A program made the position numbers and the translations under genes. Below, piece after piece: positions 6,098-19,562 of a DNA stretch of 36,592 nucleotides. The number at the start of each line of letters is the position of its first letter. Within the stretch, counting starts at the first letter, position 1. Under the pieces are notes generated by a model. The model was not told where the DNA came from, did no database searches, and was given only the letters and a program-made list of their open reading frames with translations. The DNA comes from a virus. The stretch is from positions 1 to 36,592 of IMG/VR virus record IMGVR_UViG_3300025887_000066; one strand, written 5' to 3'.

Positions 6098-6126
6098 ATT
6101 ATACCACACTTTTATGCATTTGTCAA
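6098..6126 (-). promoter_or_regulatory. Consensus sigma-70 late promoter
   Basis: The minus strand reads TTGACA, a 17-base spacer, TATAAT: a perfect match at both hexamers with optimal spacing. The spacer shares AATG..TAAAAGT.TG with the promoter at 10787-10815, and its last part with the one at 19065-19093. It would drive the zinc-ribbon, scaffold and capsid genes. The -35 box lies inside the coding sequence of the 22-residue peptide at 6112-6180. Confidence 0.9.
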
Positions 6127-10669: not shown

Positions 10670-10786
10670 ATTGTATAGGCTCTACCTAGTTTGCTTTCTG
10701 GTTTGTTATCTATACTTGTGGGTAATATGCACTAGTACTTAGTCTTAATGCATCGTACTTTCCGCTATAGTTCTATATATACATAT

Positions 10787-10815
10787 ATTATAGCATACTT
10801 TTACTCATTTGTCAA
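10787..10815 (-). promoter_or_regulatory. Consensus sigma-70 promoter of the late block
   Basis: The minus strand reads TTGACA, 17 bases, TATAAT, with an extended TGc before the -10. Thirteen of the 17 spacer bases equal those of the promoter at 6098-6126. Transcription would start near 10780 and enter the small terminase gene after a leader of about 110 bases. Confidence 0.9.
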
Positions 10816-11117: not shown

Positions 11118-11133
11118 ATTAACTGGAGTTAAT
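11118..11133. promoter_or_regulatory. 16-bp palindrome ATTAACTGGAGTTAAT, copy 1 (operator-like)
   Basis: Seven-base arms surround GG. The site abuts the TTGACA -35 box (11134-11139) of the early promoter. Unlike the other three copies it is not followed by a start codon, so here it must act at the DNA level if it acts at all. This is the best argument that the repeated element is a protein-binding site and not only a ribosome site. Confidence 0.75.
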
Positions 11134-11215: not shown

Positions 11216-11231
11216 ATTAACTGGAGTTAAT
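11216..11231. promoter_or_regulatory. 16-bp palindrome, copy 2, over the ribosome site of the 179-aa gene
   Basis: An exact copy of ATTAACTGGAGTTAAT whose internal GGAG is the Shine-Dalgarno of the gene at 11235, eight bases from the ATG. In RNA it can form a six-base-pair stem with the loop TGGA, partly hiding the Shine-Dalgarno. Shares 24 consecutive bases (through the ATG) with copy 3. Confidence 0.75.
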
Positions 11232-11234
11232 ATC

Positions 11235-11774
11235 ATGACTAACATAGATATCAAAGGCGCTGGCGCTATTGTTGCAAAAGCACAACTAGACGCAGAGAAG
11301 AAACCAGTCGCGGCAATGATCAAGGGACTAGCTGACGTTAAAACGAAAGAGGATACCGCGGAGTTCATCGGCGGTTATGAGGGCGGGTTAATCGCTGGCG
11401 GTAAATCAGAGGCATCTGTCAAGGTAATGATCAGCCGCGCACGTCGCATCGCTAAGATCTGGACAGCGACCGATAAAAAGCTAAACGATTTTCACGGCAT
11501 CAATTCACCGGCAGACGGCCAAGCATTGATCAAGGATACCGCGAAGGATTCGGGCGGACTCACTGAGCTATACGAGAAGCTAGCACCGAAAGAGCAAGAG
11601 ATCGCGCCGGACACTGACCAAGGCGAGCCAGACGCAGAGATGGAATCATCATCGGAGCCACTGGCCAGCGAAGCGCCGAAACTCTCGCACTTGCTTTCGG
11701 AGTTCGTCCAAAAAGCCCACGAGAACGGCTACACAAACGACGAAATAAAAGCCATCGTAGCAGAGGCGCTGTAA
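11235..11774 (+). CDS. Standalone early protein of unknown function (179 aa)
   Basis: A 179-residue protein with no family that I recognise. Residues 45-75 (GGLIAGGKSEASVKVMISRARRIAKIW) look like helix-turn-helix or another DNA-binding helix pair. Residues 120-150 are acidic and Ser/Pro-rich, probably a flexible linker, and the last 30 residues form a compact helical end (LLSEFVQKAHENGYTNDEIK). The gene has its own promoter, palindromic ribosome site and terminator, so it is a separate transcription unit and probably the first expressed. Its GC content and codon use are visibly higher than those of neighbours. A regulator or host-takeover factor is the leading guess, unproven. Confidence 0.85.
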   Translation: MTNIDIKGAGAIVAKAQLDAEKKPVAAMIKGLADVKTKEDTAEFIGGYEGGLIAGGKSEASVKVMISRARRIAKIWTATDKKLNDFHGINSPADGQALIKDTAKDSGGLTELYEKLAPKEQEIAPDTDQGEPDAEMESSSEPLASEAPKLSHLLSEFVQKAHENGYTNDEIKAIVAEAL

Positions 11775-11797
11775 GACCCGCACCATGTCCACACTCG

Positions 11798-11818
11798 CCG
11801 CCTTCGGGCGGTTTTTTT
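11798..11818 (+). terminator. Intrinsic terminator after the 179-aa gene
   Basis: CCGCC-TTCG-GGCGG, a five-base-pair GC stem with a stable UUCG loop, is followed by seven T residues. It ends the monocistronic early transcript 24 bases after the stop codon and isolates it from the operon that follows. Confidence 0.93.
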
Positions 11819-11850
11819 ACGCCTGCCTACTACATGAGAACCGTTCGCAT

Positions 11851-11919: not shown

Positions 11920-11935
11920 ATTAACTGGAGTTAAT
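11920..11935. promoter_or_regulatory. 16-bp palindrome, copy 3, over the ribosome site of the first small gene
   Basis: An exact copy of ATTAACTGGAGTTAAT, with the GGAG eight bases before the ATG at 11939. This copy fixes the start of the downstream gene, because an in-frame ATG at 11897 lacks a ribosome site. Confidence 0.75.
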
Positions 11936-14075: not shown

Positions 14076-14267
14076 ATGGCTATGGATACTTGGTTTATTG
14101 TGCAGAAGTTTAACCGCAAGACGTGGGAGTGGGAGGAGAGAGACGATGATGGGTCGTCTTGGAATTCTACTCTTAGTAATGCAAAGTACTTCTGTGATCG
14201 GCATATAGCAGACGGCGAAGAATGCCGTGTAGTCAAAGAGGAGGTGGTCTATGCACCCGATGCCTAG
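14076..14267 (+). CDS. Hypothetical early protein (63 aa)
   Basis: A 63-residue protein starting MAMDTWFIVQKFNRKTWEWE. The WFIVQKFN strand, the SSWNSTLSNAKYFCDR helix and CRVVKEEVVY strand suggest a small beta-alpha-beta domain. A GGAGG lies just upstream of the ATG at 14076. The end overlaps the next gene by 17 bases. No family recognised. Confidence 0.7.
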   Translation: MAMDTWFIVQKFNRKTWEWEERDDDGSSWNSTLSNAKYFCDRHIADGEECRVVKEEVVYAPDA

Positions 14268-14847
14268 TATTAGTAAGATGACGGGTAAGCTGGACGGTAT
14301 ACAAGCAATCAACACCAACACAGTTACGAATCCATTCTGTGTGCAGGAGTCTAACAAGACTGATGCAAGCAAGATTTGTACCAAGTGTTACAGTGTTAGT
14401 ATGCTTTCTAGTTATAGGAAGAACTGCCAACCATCCTTCCAGAGGAATAGTGACATCCTTGCGAGTGATGCTGAGTTCGTGTTGCCGCGTACCTCCGGTG
14501 CATTTGTGCGGTTTCATGGGCACGGTGAGCTTATAAATGAGCAACACTTCCGTAACTTATGTGCGATAGCGGAGGACAACAAGCACTCTACCTTTGCGTT
14601 GTGGACTAAGCGTGTGAATCTAGTACGTCCGAATCTGCATCTAGTACCTAGTAATATGCTTCTGGTTTATAGTAATCCGAAGATAGATAACGTGATGGAA
14701 TCTCCACCGCGTGGGTTCGACCGTGTATTCAACAACGTGTCGGAGTCGTATGACGGTGAGGCTAACTGTACTGGACAGAAGTGTATGGATTGTTTATTAT
14801 GTTATAAGCGTGAGACGACAGACGTTATTGTCGAGCATGTAAAGTGA
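14251..14847 (+). CDS. Cysteine-rich Gp88-like protein, possible Fe-S enzyme
   Basis: A 198-residue protein. The pattern resembles the phage Gp88/DUF7227 family as I recall it: an N-terminal Cys30 and Cys43-x2-Cys46-Tyr, a RFHGHGELIN core strand (87-96), a FALWTKR strand (115-121), and a C-terminal cluster Cys173-x4-Cys178-x2-Cys181-x2-Cys184. The seven Cys in two groups could hold an iron-sulphur centre or zinc, and the strand layout recalls a partial radical-SAM barrel. It has a GAGGAGG ribosome site and lies in the small-gene operon. Enzymatic activity is not established for this family to my knowledge. Confidence 0.7.
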   Translation: MHPMPSISKMTGKLDGIQAINTNTVTNPFCVQESNKTDASKICTKCYSVSMLSSYRKNCQPSFQRNSDILASDAEFVLPRTSGAFVRFHGHGELINEQHFRNLCAIAEDNKHSTFALWTKRVNLVRPNLHLVPSNMLLVYSNPKIDNVMESPPRGFDRVFNNVSESYDGEANCTGQKCMDCLLCYKRETTDVIVEHVK

Positions 14848-14874
14848 TGTGTCTGGGTATTGGGGGAGGTTTCT

Positions 14875-15027
14875 ATGGGACGTGAGACTTGGGAAGTGTG
14901 GCACGATGAGTACCAAGAGTACTGGGATCAAGACAGTGACCGATGTAAGTGGGACTATGCAGATGAGTACTACGAGGACGACATCGGTAAGTACAAGGAG
15001 GAGAGGGATATTGAAGAAGCGAGGTAA
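14875..15027 (+). CDS. 50-residue acidic, aromatic small protein
   Basis: The frame starts MGRETWEVWHDEYQEYWDQD and ends DIEEARstop. It has a GGGGGAGG ribosome site and lies in line with its neighbours, overlapping the next gene by 17 bases. Trp, Tyr, Asp and Glu make up more than half of it, as in DNA-mimic or anti-defence peptides, but resemblance in composition alone does not show such a role. Confidence 0.6.
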   Translation: MGRETWEVWHDEYQEYWDQDSDRCKWDYADEYYEDDIGKYKEERDIEEAR

Positions 15028-15226
15028 CTACCTTGACTATCACATGACACATCAGGAAATCGCTGATGAGCTAGGTGTTAGTAGGACAACGGTACGTGCA
15101 ATAGAGTACAGTGCGTTGCAGAAACTCAAGCGTTCTGGTAAATTGCGTACTTTCTTGGAACATATCAACGACGATAGAGAGGATTATTATGGGGAGAAAT
15201 ACACGCCGGTACGTCAGAAATCATAA
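15011..15226 (+). CDS. Miniature sigma-70 region-4-like HTH protein
   Basis: A 71-residue protein that begins at a TTG codon eight bases after AGGAGG; no ATG fits as well. Residues 12-41 (MTHQEIADELGVSRTTVRAI, then EYSALQKLKRS) match the region-4 helix-turn-helix of sigma-70 factors, which recognises the -35 box. There is no region 2 or 3. The C-terminus is acidic then basic. It precedes the promoter at 15268-15297 and the replication genes, so it may redirect or modulate host polymerase at phage promoters; a plain transcriptional regulator is the alternative. Confidence 0.75.
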   Translation: MKKRGNYLDYHMTHQEIADELGVSRTTVRAIEYSALQKLKRSGKLRTFLEHINDDREDYYGEKYTPVRQKS

Positions 15227-15308
15227 GACGCGCTGTAAATCAAGTGTCAAAAGTCACAAGAAGAGTGGTGCCAAAAAGAATCGTGGTGTGGTACAATCTT
15301 CTATATAG
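15189..15308 (+). CDS. 39-residue basic small ORF
   Basis: The frame starts MGRNTRRYVRNHKTRCKSSV and ends QSSI. It is strongly basic with many Lys, Arg and Ser and overlaps the end of the region-4-like gene by 38 bases. A GAGAGGA sequence lies upstream. The -10 box of the next promoter lies in its last codons, so the sequence is under other constraints. It may be a real DNA-binding peptide or a chance frame. Confidence 0.35.
   Translation: MGRNTRRYVRNHKTRCKSSVKSHKKSGAKKNRGVVQSSI
15268..15297 (+). promoter_or_regulatory. Putative middle promoter ahead of replication genes
   Basis: GTGCCA, 18 bases, TACAAT. The -35 is weak (four of six) but the -10 region reads GTGTGGTACAAT, nearly the GTGTGGTATAAT seen at 6098-6126 and 19065-19093. 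That shared extended -10 suggests a common class of phage promoter. It would drive the 61-residue gene, primase-helicase and polymerase. Confidence 0.6.
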
Positions 15309-15319
15309 TCTATACAGTA

Positions 15320-15338
15320 AGTACTATGCATTAGTACT
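15320..15338. promoter_or_regulatory. Inverted repeat AGTACTA-TGCAT-TAGTACT
   Basis: Seven-base arms around TGCAT in the short AT-rich leader between the promoter at 15268 and the gene at 15375. Related AGTACT/ATGCA clusters occur near 10730-10752 and 10922 in the divergent control region, so it may be a shared operator. It could equally form an RNA hairpin in the leader. Confidence 0.45.
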
Positions 15339-15374
15339 AAGTATTAATAATACATATTACTTATGGGAGGTGAT

Positions 15375-17385: not shown

Positions 17386-19067
17386 AGAACTTACAGAGAG
17401 AGAAGACTTGGACATTGCCTACTACGAATATAGTGTTCTTGGATATAGAAACGGATGGTCTCCAGCCATCGGTAATACACTGTGTTGTGACCAAGAGGCC
17501 AAACGAGGATCACTGTCTCCATACCTGTAGGCAGTCACTGTTCGAGGAACTAGCTAGGGGTGGTCACGTATGTGGTCACAACTACATAGGCTTTGACGGA
17601 CCTGTACTGAAAAAGCTATGGGACATTGAGATACATCCTGAGCGTGTTGTTGATACGTTGGTTATGTCTAGGCTGTTCCATCCTGATGTACAGGGAGGCC
17701 ACAGTCTCGCTACGTGGGGAGAGAAGCTACGTCTACCCAAGGGTGATCACGATGATTGGTCTCAGTTGTCTGAAGAGATGATCAAGTACTGTATGCGTGA
17801 CGTGTCAGTGACTGAGAAGCTGTATGAGATGCTGTGTTTACAACTACAGATGTTCGACTTTTCTGACACCAGTGTTTACCTTGAACATGCTGTCGCACAT
17901 ATATGTAAGGATCAAGAAGACAATGGCTTTGCGTTCAATGCTTCTGATGCAAAGCAATTAGAACGACAGTTAGAGACTAAGATGCTGGGTATCGAGGCTG
18001 CATTGCAGAATATATTCCCACCCATAGCTGAAGAGCAGAGGTATCACAAGACATCAGGTAAGCCATTGCCTGTGAGGTACACTCACTTCAACGTAGGGTC
18101 TAGGCAACAGATAGCTGAGAGACTAGAGAAGAAGGGTGCAGTATGGAAAGAGAAGACACCATCAGGTAAACCAAAGGTGGATGAGTCTACTCTCAAGAAG
18201 AACCTACACGTACCTGAAGCAAAGACGGTGCTTAAGTATCTGCTACTACAGAAGAGACACTCTCAAGTACTGTCGTGGATCAAGGCAGAAAACAAAGGAA
18301 GGATATATGGAAGGGTCAAACACATCGGGGCTGTTACAGGACGCATGGCGCACTCTAGCCCTAATCTGGCGCAAGTTCCTGCTGTTTATGCAGAGTACGG
18401 TAGCGATTGCCGCAAGCTTTTTATTGTTCCTCCTGACCGTGTTCTCGTTGGGGCTGACGCATCTGGTCTGGAACTTAGGATGCTGGCTCACTACATGGAT
18501 AGTGAGGGTTACACGAAAGAAATCTTAGAAGGAGATATACACACAACTAATCAACAAGCGGCTGGACTAAAGACTAGGGCGCAAGCTAAGACATTCATCT
18601 ATGCATTCCTGTACGGCGCTGGAAATGCAAAGATAGGATCTGTTGTAGGTGGTAGTGCACAGCTTGGTGCCAGACTAAAAGAAACATTCTTAAGAAACGT
18701 CCCTTCTCTTGCACGACTGAGGGAGGACGTAACAACGCAAGCAGACTCTGGGTTTCTTGACGGCCTAGATGGTAGACGACTACGTGTTCGTTCTGCTCAT
18801 GCCGCGTTGAATACATTACTACAAGGAGCCGGTGCTATCGTAATGAAACAGGCAGTGATACACCTGTATGAATTACTTGAGCATGTAGACTTCAAGCTAG
18901 TAGCACAAGTCCACGATGAGTGGCAAATAGAGTGTCATCCTGAAGACGCTGAGTACGTAGGTAAGTCTGCGGTAAAGGCTATCATTCAGGCTGGCGAAAC
19001 CTTCAACCTTAACTGCCCACTAGATGGTGAGTATCGTATTGGTAGTAATTGGGCCGAAACGCATTAG
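17379..19067 (+). CDS. Family A DNA polymerase with 3'-5' exonuclease (T7 gp5-like)
   Basis: A 562-residue replicative polymerase. The exonuclease domain shows FLDIETDGL (Asp22, Glu24), HNYIGFDGP (Asp73) and CMRDVSVTEKLYE (Asp141). The polymerase palm shows motif A GADASGLELR (Asp360), the O-helix TRAQAKTFIYAFLYGAG (Arg400, Lys404, Tyr408) and motif C VHDEW (Asp513-Glu514). Tyr408 is at the position of E. coli Phe762 and T7 Tyr526, the variant usual in lytic phages. It is about 140 residues shorter than T7 gp5, and I see no clear thioredoxin-binding loop. It overlaps the previous gene by seven bases; the ribosome site is only moderate. Confidence 0.96.
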   Translation: MVENLQREKTWTLPTTNIVFLDIETDGLQPSVIHCVVTKRPNEDHCLHTCRQSLFEELARGGHVCGHNYIGFDGPVLKKLWDIEIHPERVVDTLVMSRLFHPDVQGGHSLATWGEKLRLPKGDHDDWSQLSEEMIKYCMRDVSVTEKLYEMLCLQLQMFDFSDTSVYLEHAVAHICKDQEDNGFAFNASDAKQLERQLETKMLGIEAALQNIFPPIAEEQRYHKTSGKPLPVRYTHFNVGSRQQIAERLEKKGAVWKEKTPSGKPKVDESTLKKNLHVPEAKTVLKYLLLQKRHSQVLSWIKAENKGRIYGRVKHIGAVTGRMAHSSPNLAQVPAVYAEYGSDCRKLFIVPPDRVLVGADASGLELRMLAHYMDSEGYTKEILEGDIHTTNQQAAGLKTRAQAKTFIYAFLYGAGNAKIGSVVGGSAQLGARLKETFLRNVPSLARLREDVTTQADSGFLDGLDGRRLRVRSAHAALNTLLQGAGAIVMKQAVIHLYELLEHVDFKLVAQVHDEWQIECHPEDAEYVGKSAVKAIIQAGETFNLNCPLDGEYRIGSNWAETH

Positions 19068-19093
19068 CACAATCTGCAAAAGTGTGGTATAAT
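19065..19093 (+). promoter_or_regulatory. Promoter of the ssDNA-binding protein gene
   Basis: A perfect TATAAT at 19088-19093 is preceded by AAAAGTGTGG, identical to the same part of the late promoter at 6098-6126. The -35 region (TAGCAC) is poor, as expected of an extended -10 or activator-dependent promoter. It overlaps the polymerase stop and gives the binding protein its own, probably stronger, transcript. Confidence 0.75.
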
Positions 19094-19105: not shown

Positions 19106-19121
19106 ATTAACTGGAGTTAAT
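19106..19121. promoter_or_regulatory. 16-bp palindrome, copy 4, over the ribosome site of the SSB gene
   Basis: An exact copy of ATTAACTGGAGTTAAT directly before the ATG at 19122. The GGAG is five bases from the start codon. The element lies about +6 to +21 of the transcript from the promoter at 19065-19093, a position where either a bound protein or an RNA hairpin could regulate expression. Confidence 0.75.
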
Positions 19122-19562
19122 ATGAGCGAAGCAAACATCAACATTAAATGCCAACTGTTCTGGCCTAACCTTACCCACAAGAATGAGTTAGCTGATAAGT
19201 ACACGGTAGATCTAGCTCTGTTGTCAGACGAGGCAGTAACGGCACTCGAAGACATGGGTGTCAACGTAAACAACAAAGGTGACGACCGTGGTTACTACAT
19301 CACCTGTAAGTCAAAGAACAAGTACCGTGCATTCAACCCAGACGGTAGCGAGTTACTGATTAAGGGACGTACCCCTACTAGTGAAGACGATGATCCTGAG
19401 ATGGGCGTTGTCGTTGCTAACGGGTCAGAAGCTAAGTGTCTTGTTACTTACTACGACTGGGAGTACATGAAGAAGAAGGGTCGTTCACCTTCACTGCGAC
19501 GTATGGTCATCTCTAACGTCGTCGAGTACATGCCTGACTTCGATCTAGAGGAAGCCGTGTGA
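19122..19562 (+). CDS. Single-stranded DNA-binding protein (T7 gp2.5-like)
   Basis: A 146-residue protein. The start NINIKCQLFWPNL and the strand-rich middle with KYTVDLALLS, YYITCKSKNKYRAFN and CLVTYYDWEYMKKKG fit the OB-fold binding proteins of T7-like phages. The tail DFDLEEAV is acidic and hydrophobic, as needed for contacts with polymerase and helicase. It has its own promoter and the palindromic ribosome site. The stop overlaps the exonuclease GTG start. Protects single strands and coordinates replication and recombination. Not confirmed by a search, but order and pattern agree. Confidence 0.9.
   Translation: MSEANINIKCQLFWPNLTHKNELADKYTVDLALLSDEAVTALEDMGVNVNNKGDDRGYYITCKSKNKYRAFNPDGSELLIKGRTPTSEDDDPEMGVVVANGSEAKCLVTYYDWEYMKKKGRSPSLRRMVISNVVEYMPDFDLEEAV

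Follow-up and report, generated by a model that had tools for sequence, protein, structure and literature searches.

How might a marine phage that carries no RNA polymerase of its own set the order in which its genes are expressed? In the literature searched we found no explanation of how polymerase-less marine podoviruses do so. The window analysed here, a 36,592 nucleotide stretch of viral DNA (IMG/VR record IMGVR_UViG_3300025887_000066, taken whole), gives the question a particular form, as directly upstream of the promoter of the replication operon (promoter R) lies a gene, SIG4, that encodes a small protein resembling part of a bacterial sigma factor. On balance, and with moderate confidence, we regard SIG4 as a small putative DNA-binding transcription regulator that works on the promoters of the phage together with the host RNA polymerase. 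The features discussed below are collected in Table 1.

Table 1 Positions of the SIG4 gene and of the promoters, leaders and other features considered with it
Feature	Position	Strand	Description
Gp88 family protein	14251-14847	+	PF17338; upstream in conserved block
Ribosome-binding site AAGGAGG	14996-15002	+	Direct reading; kept in close relatives
SIG4 gene	15011-15226	+	71 amino acid sigma-region-4.2-like protein; Pfam, PDB profile matches, AF2, conserved locus
Promoter R, replication operon	15268-15297	+	GTGCCA-18-TACAAT, TGTGG extended -10; -35 4/6
Leader R, AT-rich imperfect dyad	15298-15362	+	Between promoter R and ribosome-binding site
Promoter of gene at 19122	19064-19093	+	TTAGCA-18-TATAAT with TGTGG; -35 4/6
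Promoter L, leftward structural/terminase operon	10787-10815	-	TTGACA-17-TATAAT with TATGC, 12/12
Leader L, similar to leader R	10722-10786	-	Local alignment; present in group A relatives
Second leftward structural promoter (6108)	6098-6126	-	TTGACA-17-TATAAT with TGTGG

The SIG4 gene, its phage and its relatives

The first-pass annotation of this DNA had placed a 71-residue gene at 15011-15226 with a TTG start behind an AGGAGG, and both the sequence and the start codon in relatives bear this out. The TTG lies 8 nt after the AAGGAGG. In relatives GTG and TTG alternate at the same position, an in-frame stop is found two codons upstream of the start in L012 and others, and in a branch with about 60% identity (A2) the gene starts at a GTG immediately before the helix-turn-helix (HTH). 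Since the start codon is exchanged in this way and stops lie upstream of it, we take the start to be correctly placed. A longer frame of 125 amino acids from the GTG at 14849 was rejected: it gains about 1 bit in the sigma match, is broken by stops in relatives and overlaps a conserved gene at 14878-15027, which also counts against it. SIG4 is a real gene under selection, with dN 0.026 and dS 0.42 against a close relative and dN of about 0.17-0.22 with dS of at least 1 (saturated) against intermediate ones.

In about 60 IMG/VR contigs, a set from which near-identical records may be missing, the gene is found at a single locus. Of the 49 group A (close) and 13 A2 (~60% identity) contigs, all that span its place contain it. 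Gene order is fixed in all spanning contigs (gp88-like / e14878 / SIG4 / e15189 / e15375 / primase), with SIG4 always lying between the gp88-like gene and a small acidic gene on one side and the primase-helicase gene on the other. A small basic frame at 15189-15308 (+), overlapping the end of the SIG4 gene and the downstream promoter, may be coding and is 54-62% conserved in most group A relatives beyond the closest branch.

Two further groups carry the protein in other surroundings. In group B (L053, for example) the genome is different: genes for an exonuclease, a NinG-like nuclease and a DNA methylase precede SIG4, and 3′ of it come a terminator, an invariant late promoter of the extended -10 type that has no -35 box and lies 400-500 bp from SIG4, and then terS-terL. 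The site before terS-terL is a usual place for late regulators, and the position of SIG4 ahead of this operon fits a late-gene regulator. In group C the gene lies close to the genes that accompany it in group B and is encoded on the opposite strand, and the loci examined contain no exact TGnTATAAT. Searches further afield returned little: tblastn found no match to two members of the family in 50,697 phage records, HMO-2011, HTVC103P and HTVC115P (which have related replication or structural genes) gave no Sigma70_r4 match, and a scan of bacterial genomes with the family gave partial HTH matches only (38-65% identity) and no host assignment.

The replication genes of the phage (primase-helicase, family A DNA polymerase and 5′-3′ exonuclease) were confirmed by Pfam and its ribonucleotide reductase by PHROGs. 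The nearest cultured relatives of the primase are in pelagiphages HTVC115P and HTVC103P (46-48% identity), and the portal shows a distant likeness to HMO-2011-type phages. That the phage has no T7-like polymerase was also claimed at the outset and is upheld: PF00940 was not found in the window or in 19 related records, which may be incomplete, whilst the T7 genome, used as a positive control, was detected at E 1e-109. Nor was sigma region 2 (PF04542) found in SIG4 or in any of the 20 records, the positive controls again being detected, which agrees with the earlier statement that the protein has no other sigma domain. A split sigma factor in the style of SigO/RsoA was rejected on the same grounds, there being no region 2 anywhere in the 20 records. 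The source is a marine phage without an RNA polymerase of its own, as read from records that may be incomplete.

Likeness of SIG4 to sigma region 4.2

Pfam Sigma70_r4 (PF04545) matches SIG4 at 38.2 bits (E 9.9e-10), above the curated cut-off of 24.1 bits; the next family scores 24.6 bits. The match covers profile positions 19-49 of 50, that is, region 4.2 only, and region 4.1 is not present in it; in the A2 branch no more than a few residues precede Y10, the first invariant tyrosine. SIG4 had been described as a clean region 4, and whilst the Sigma70_r4 match stands, the extent of that match makes 'region 4.2 plus H5-like tail' the better description. Sigma factors also rank first in PHROGs and NCBIfam searches, although the NCBIfam sigma70-ECF superfamily score of 29.1 bits is below the cut-off of 42.9, and a profile of the SIG4 family run against the PDB matched RpoH, RpoD and SigA through region 4.2, mostly to the last residue of the sigma factor. 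In an alphaproteobacterial metagenome genome the best match was RpoD. When the tails are aligned, RSGKLRTFLEH of SIG4 and RSRKLRSFLDH of alphaproteobacterial RpoD are identical at 8 of 11 positions, a likeness reached in none of 200,000 shuffles, with the RpoD reference chosen post hoc.

By alignment, the invariant SIG4 residues R25, R29, E32 and L39 correspond to sigma-70 R584, R588, E591 and L598. Sigma-70 E585, R586, Q589 and K593 are not retained at the aligned positions in the window protein; across the family the E585 position is T, A, Q or V and the Q589 position A, V, I, N or T, with Q in some group C members only. In sigma-70 itself, R584, E585 and Q589 are base-contacting residues that read the -35 element.

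The helices of the HTH span residues 14-21 and 25-41/42, and a third, H5-like helix runs from 43/44 to 53-59 with disorder at both ends of the protein. An AF2 model (mean pLDDT 70, 88-94 in the HTH blocks) has three helices, a confident HTH and a disordered tail. Foldseek with this model placed the archaeal protein EnfR (8hno) first, weakly (E 0.34), and sigma region 4 next, with no match below E 0.001. There were also weak matches to RppC, a packaging-redirecting protein, and to terminase small subunit families. The H5-like tail is retained in group A; the A2 branch lacks the F-L pair of the tail (LQAYAQH). As judged from its sequence, SIG4 derives from the C-terminal end of a primary sigma factor or is very like it.

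Promoters, leaders and palindromes

The phage group conserves four promoters of the extended -10 type, of which the two rightward ones have a weak -35 box and the two leftward ones a perfect TTGACA. In relatives promoter R reads TTGGCA/TTAGCA/GTGGCA/CCGCCA-18-TATACT, with a weak and variable -35 box, and its extended -10 block has 95.7% mean pairwise identity. The first-pass annotation was right that the promoter following SIG4 is of the extended -10 type with a poor -35 box (15268-15297, 4/6). Of the three promoters that it named (15268, 19065 and 10787), those at 15268 and 19064 have a poor -35 box (4/6 each) but that at 10787 does not (12/12), and since the latter is a perfect TTGACA-17-TATAAT the rule fails within the phage. 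Promoters without a standard -35 box are those at 15268 and 19064 and the one in group B, not those at 10787 and 6108, and the class takes in only half of the four conserved promoters. Work on T4 indicates that any two of the -35, TGn and -10 elements typically suffice and that extended -10 promoters function unaided (PMC2988021), so the weak -35 boxes seen here need no helper. With promoters as strong as the leftward pair ahead of structural genes, some delay would be needed. These two promoters (10787-10815 and 6098-6126) share TTGACAAATG...AAAAGTRTGNTATAAT, a full sigma-70 consensus with an extended -10.

Both leaders start directly after the -10 box. Across 21 relatives the 65 bp of leader R average 94.7% identity, whereas the third codon positions of three flanking genes reach 71-79%; of the non-coding stretches examined, leader R is the most conserved. 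Its local alignment with leader L scores 48, a value to be set against 33 as the best of 1000 dinucleotide shuffles of the two, and the same leader L blocks are found in group A relatives. The dyad of leader R is kept in distant relatives although its arms have changed. Folding gives a z of -8 in L152 and -2 to -3 in other distant relatives, the leader R of the window folds no better than shuffles, and a search of Rfam for leader R as a known RNA gave no match. Leader R may serve as an operator, form a hairpin in the mRNA or belong to an origin.

The clearer operator candidate is associated with the gene at 11235-11774 (+), not with SIG4. This gene, the first of the early genes, comes in allele classes, and the type of palindrome near it changes with the class: ATTAACTGGAGTTAAT accompanies class I, ATTAATCTGGATTAAT or ATTAATCCAGATTAAT accompanies class II and neither is present in the single class III contig. 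Close linkage could be the cause of this match near the gene. The distant copy (19106, before the gene at 19122) follows the class in 9 of 11 genomes (5/5 for class I, 4/6 for class II), which is suggestive only. The pattern suggests that the product is an autoregulating putative DNA-binding protein, one with no family match, and these palindromes may be a more solid regulatory find than SIG4. In the window ATTAACTGGAGTTAAT occurs in four exact copies (11118-11133, 11216-11231, 11920-11935 and 19106-19121), three of which surround the GGAG of a ribosome-binding site. A strong intrinsic terminator at 11795-11820 (+; GCCGCC TTCG GGCGGT, then a T run) directly follows the gene, which therefore forms a unit of its own.

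Possible roles of SIG4 and comparison with known systems

The sigma-4.2 HTH, the fixed gene order, the conservation of leader R and its echo in leader L, and the position before terS-terL in group B all speak for a regulator. As such SIG4 would bind DNA, with the phage's promoters or leaders R and L as its targets, and would aid the switch from the early genes to the replication and structural genes. The likeliest targets are leaders R and L, after the replication and leftward structural promoters, and the likeliest mode, by analogy with EnfR, is as a dimer on the pseudo-palindromic leader; SIG4 may instead dock on the beta-flap via its H5-like tail. Having a sigma-4-like HTH does not by itself imply action on RNA polymerase, because EnfR is a DNA-binding dimer. 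Against leader binding, the leader is nearly unchanged where the recognition helix differs (SRTTVRAIEY in the window, SRQMVRVIEY in others), L161 combines a distant SIG4 protein type with a close leader type, and the protein occurs in groups B and C, which lack the group A leader. A tight pairing of recognition helix with leader sequence was not seen across relatives.

It is unlikely that SIG4 instead replaces host sigma region 4 on the beta-flap via the H5-like helix, leaving the polymerase to rely on the extended -10 and perhaps on a new -35-like sequence at phage promoters. This would suit a phage without a polymerase whose protein has sigma factors as its nearest sequence relatives, even in the C-terminal tail with which they dock in the beta-flap, a tail that is kept in group A; promoters R and 19064, extended -10 with a 4/6 -35 box, and the late promoter of group B, extended -10 with none, would suit it too. 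However, SIG4 lacks region 4.1 (H1, H2), which belongs to the surface that contacts the beta-flap (PMC2988021), the A2 tail has lost its F-L pair and the equivalents of E585, R586, Q589 and K593 are not kept. The perfect TTGACA of the structural promoters at 10787 and 6108, the lack of an exact extended -10 in group C and the ability of extended -10 promoters to work without a helper (PMC2988021) also count against it.

We also think it rather unlikely that SIG4 is an HTH protein with some other task, for example in host takeover or as an accessory factor of packaging. The weak matches to RppC and the terminase small subunit families, and the adjacency to terS-terL in group B, point that way, but sigma-factor families are clearly best in every library and SIG4 of the window lies far from the terminase genes. 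A role in replication initiation or copy control rather than transcription, through binding to the dyad at 15298-15362, appears improbable: this AT-rich palindromic dyad does sit just before the primase-helicase gene, but a similar element is found after the leftward structural promoter, each of the two starts immediately after a -10 box, and SIG4 adjoins the terminase genes in group B. Doubtful, too, is the reading that polymerase-less phages use a detached region 4.2 with an H5 anchor as a swappable '-35 reader', docked on the host RNA polymerase next to the intact sigma regions 2 and 3; if true, this would let phage promoters gain a new upstream element with no need of a new sigma factor. 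Whichever way SIG4 acts, the protein and the mapped conserved promoters and leaders make the order of expression testable in E. coli or alphaproteobacterial transcription systems.

With primary sigma factors (RpoD/SigA) and RpoH, SIG4 shares the invariant HTH pattern S/T-R-x-x-[VI]-R-x-x-E-x-x-[AG]-[LI]-x-K-L, and with alphaproteobacterial RpoD a similar tail, but it differs from primary sigma factors in lacking regions 1-3 and region 4.1. The analogy with T4 AsiA and MotA drawn in the first-pass annotation holds loosely. AsiA attaches to sigma region 4 and remodels it, and the contacts of MotA are with sigma H5 and with DNA, where it has its own box at -30; both are small phage proteins that steer the host polymerase to promoters without a standard -35, and to that extent the comparison stands, but neither is a copy of region 4 (PMC2988021). 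No relative of either was seen in the phage.

As a regulator that binds DNA, SIG4 compares with EnfR, of the archaeal Tfx family, a non-sigma repressor with a sigma-region-4-like HTH whose dimer binds a pseudo-palindrome of 36 bp (PMC10570040); this target, AT-rich and within the promoter region, is comparable to the phage leaders. EnfR is a protein of 146 amino acids with an extra alpha+beta domain, whereas SIG4, at 71, lacks that domain and has a disordered tail; the fold match is weak and the EnfR/Tfx profile TIGR00721 scores 16.5 bits on SIG4, below its cut-off of 60.25. In the same size class and with the same domain are two uncultured Caudovirales proteins annotated as 'RNA polymerase sigma-70 region 4', A0A6J5N2N3 (54 amino acids) and A0A6J5LCA9 (62 amino acids), which were found by fold with an E-value that is not significant. 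In the literature searched we found no functional study of stand-alone sigma-region-4 phage proteins, though one may exist. Proteins of this kind are already annotated in uncultured phages, and SIG4 joins them.
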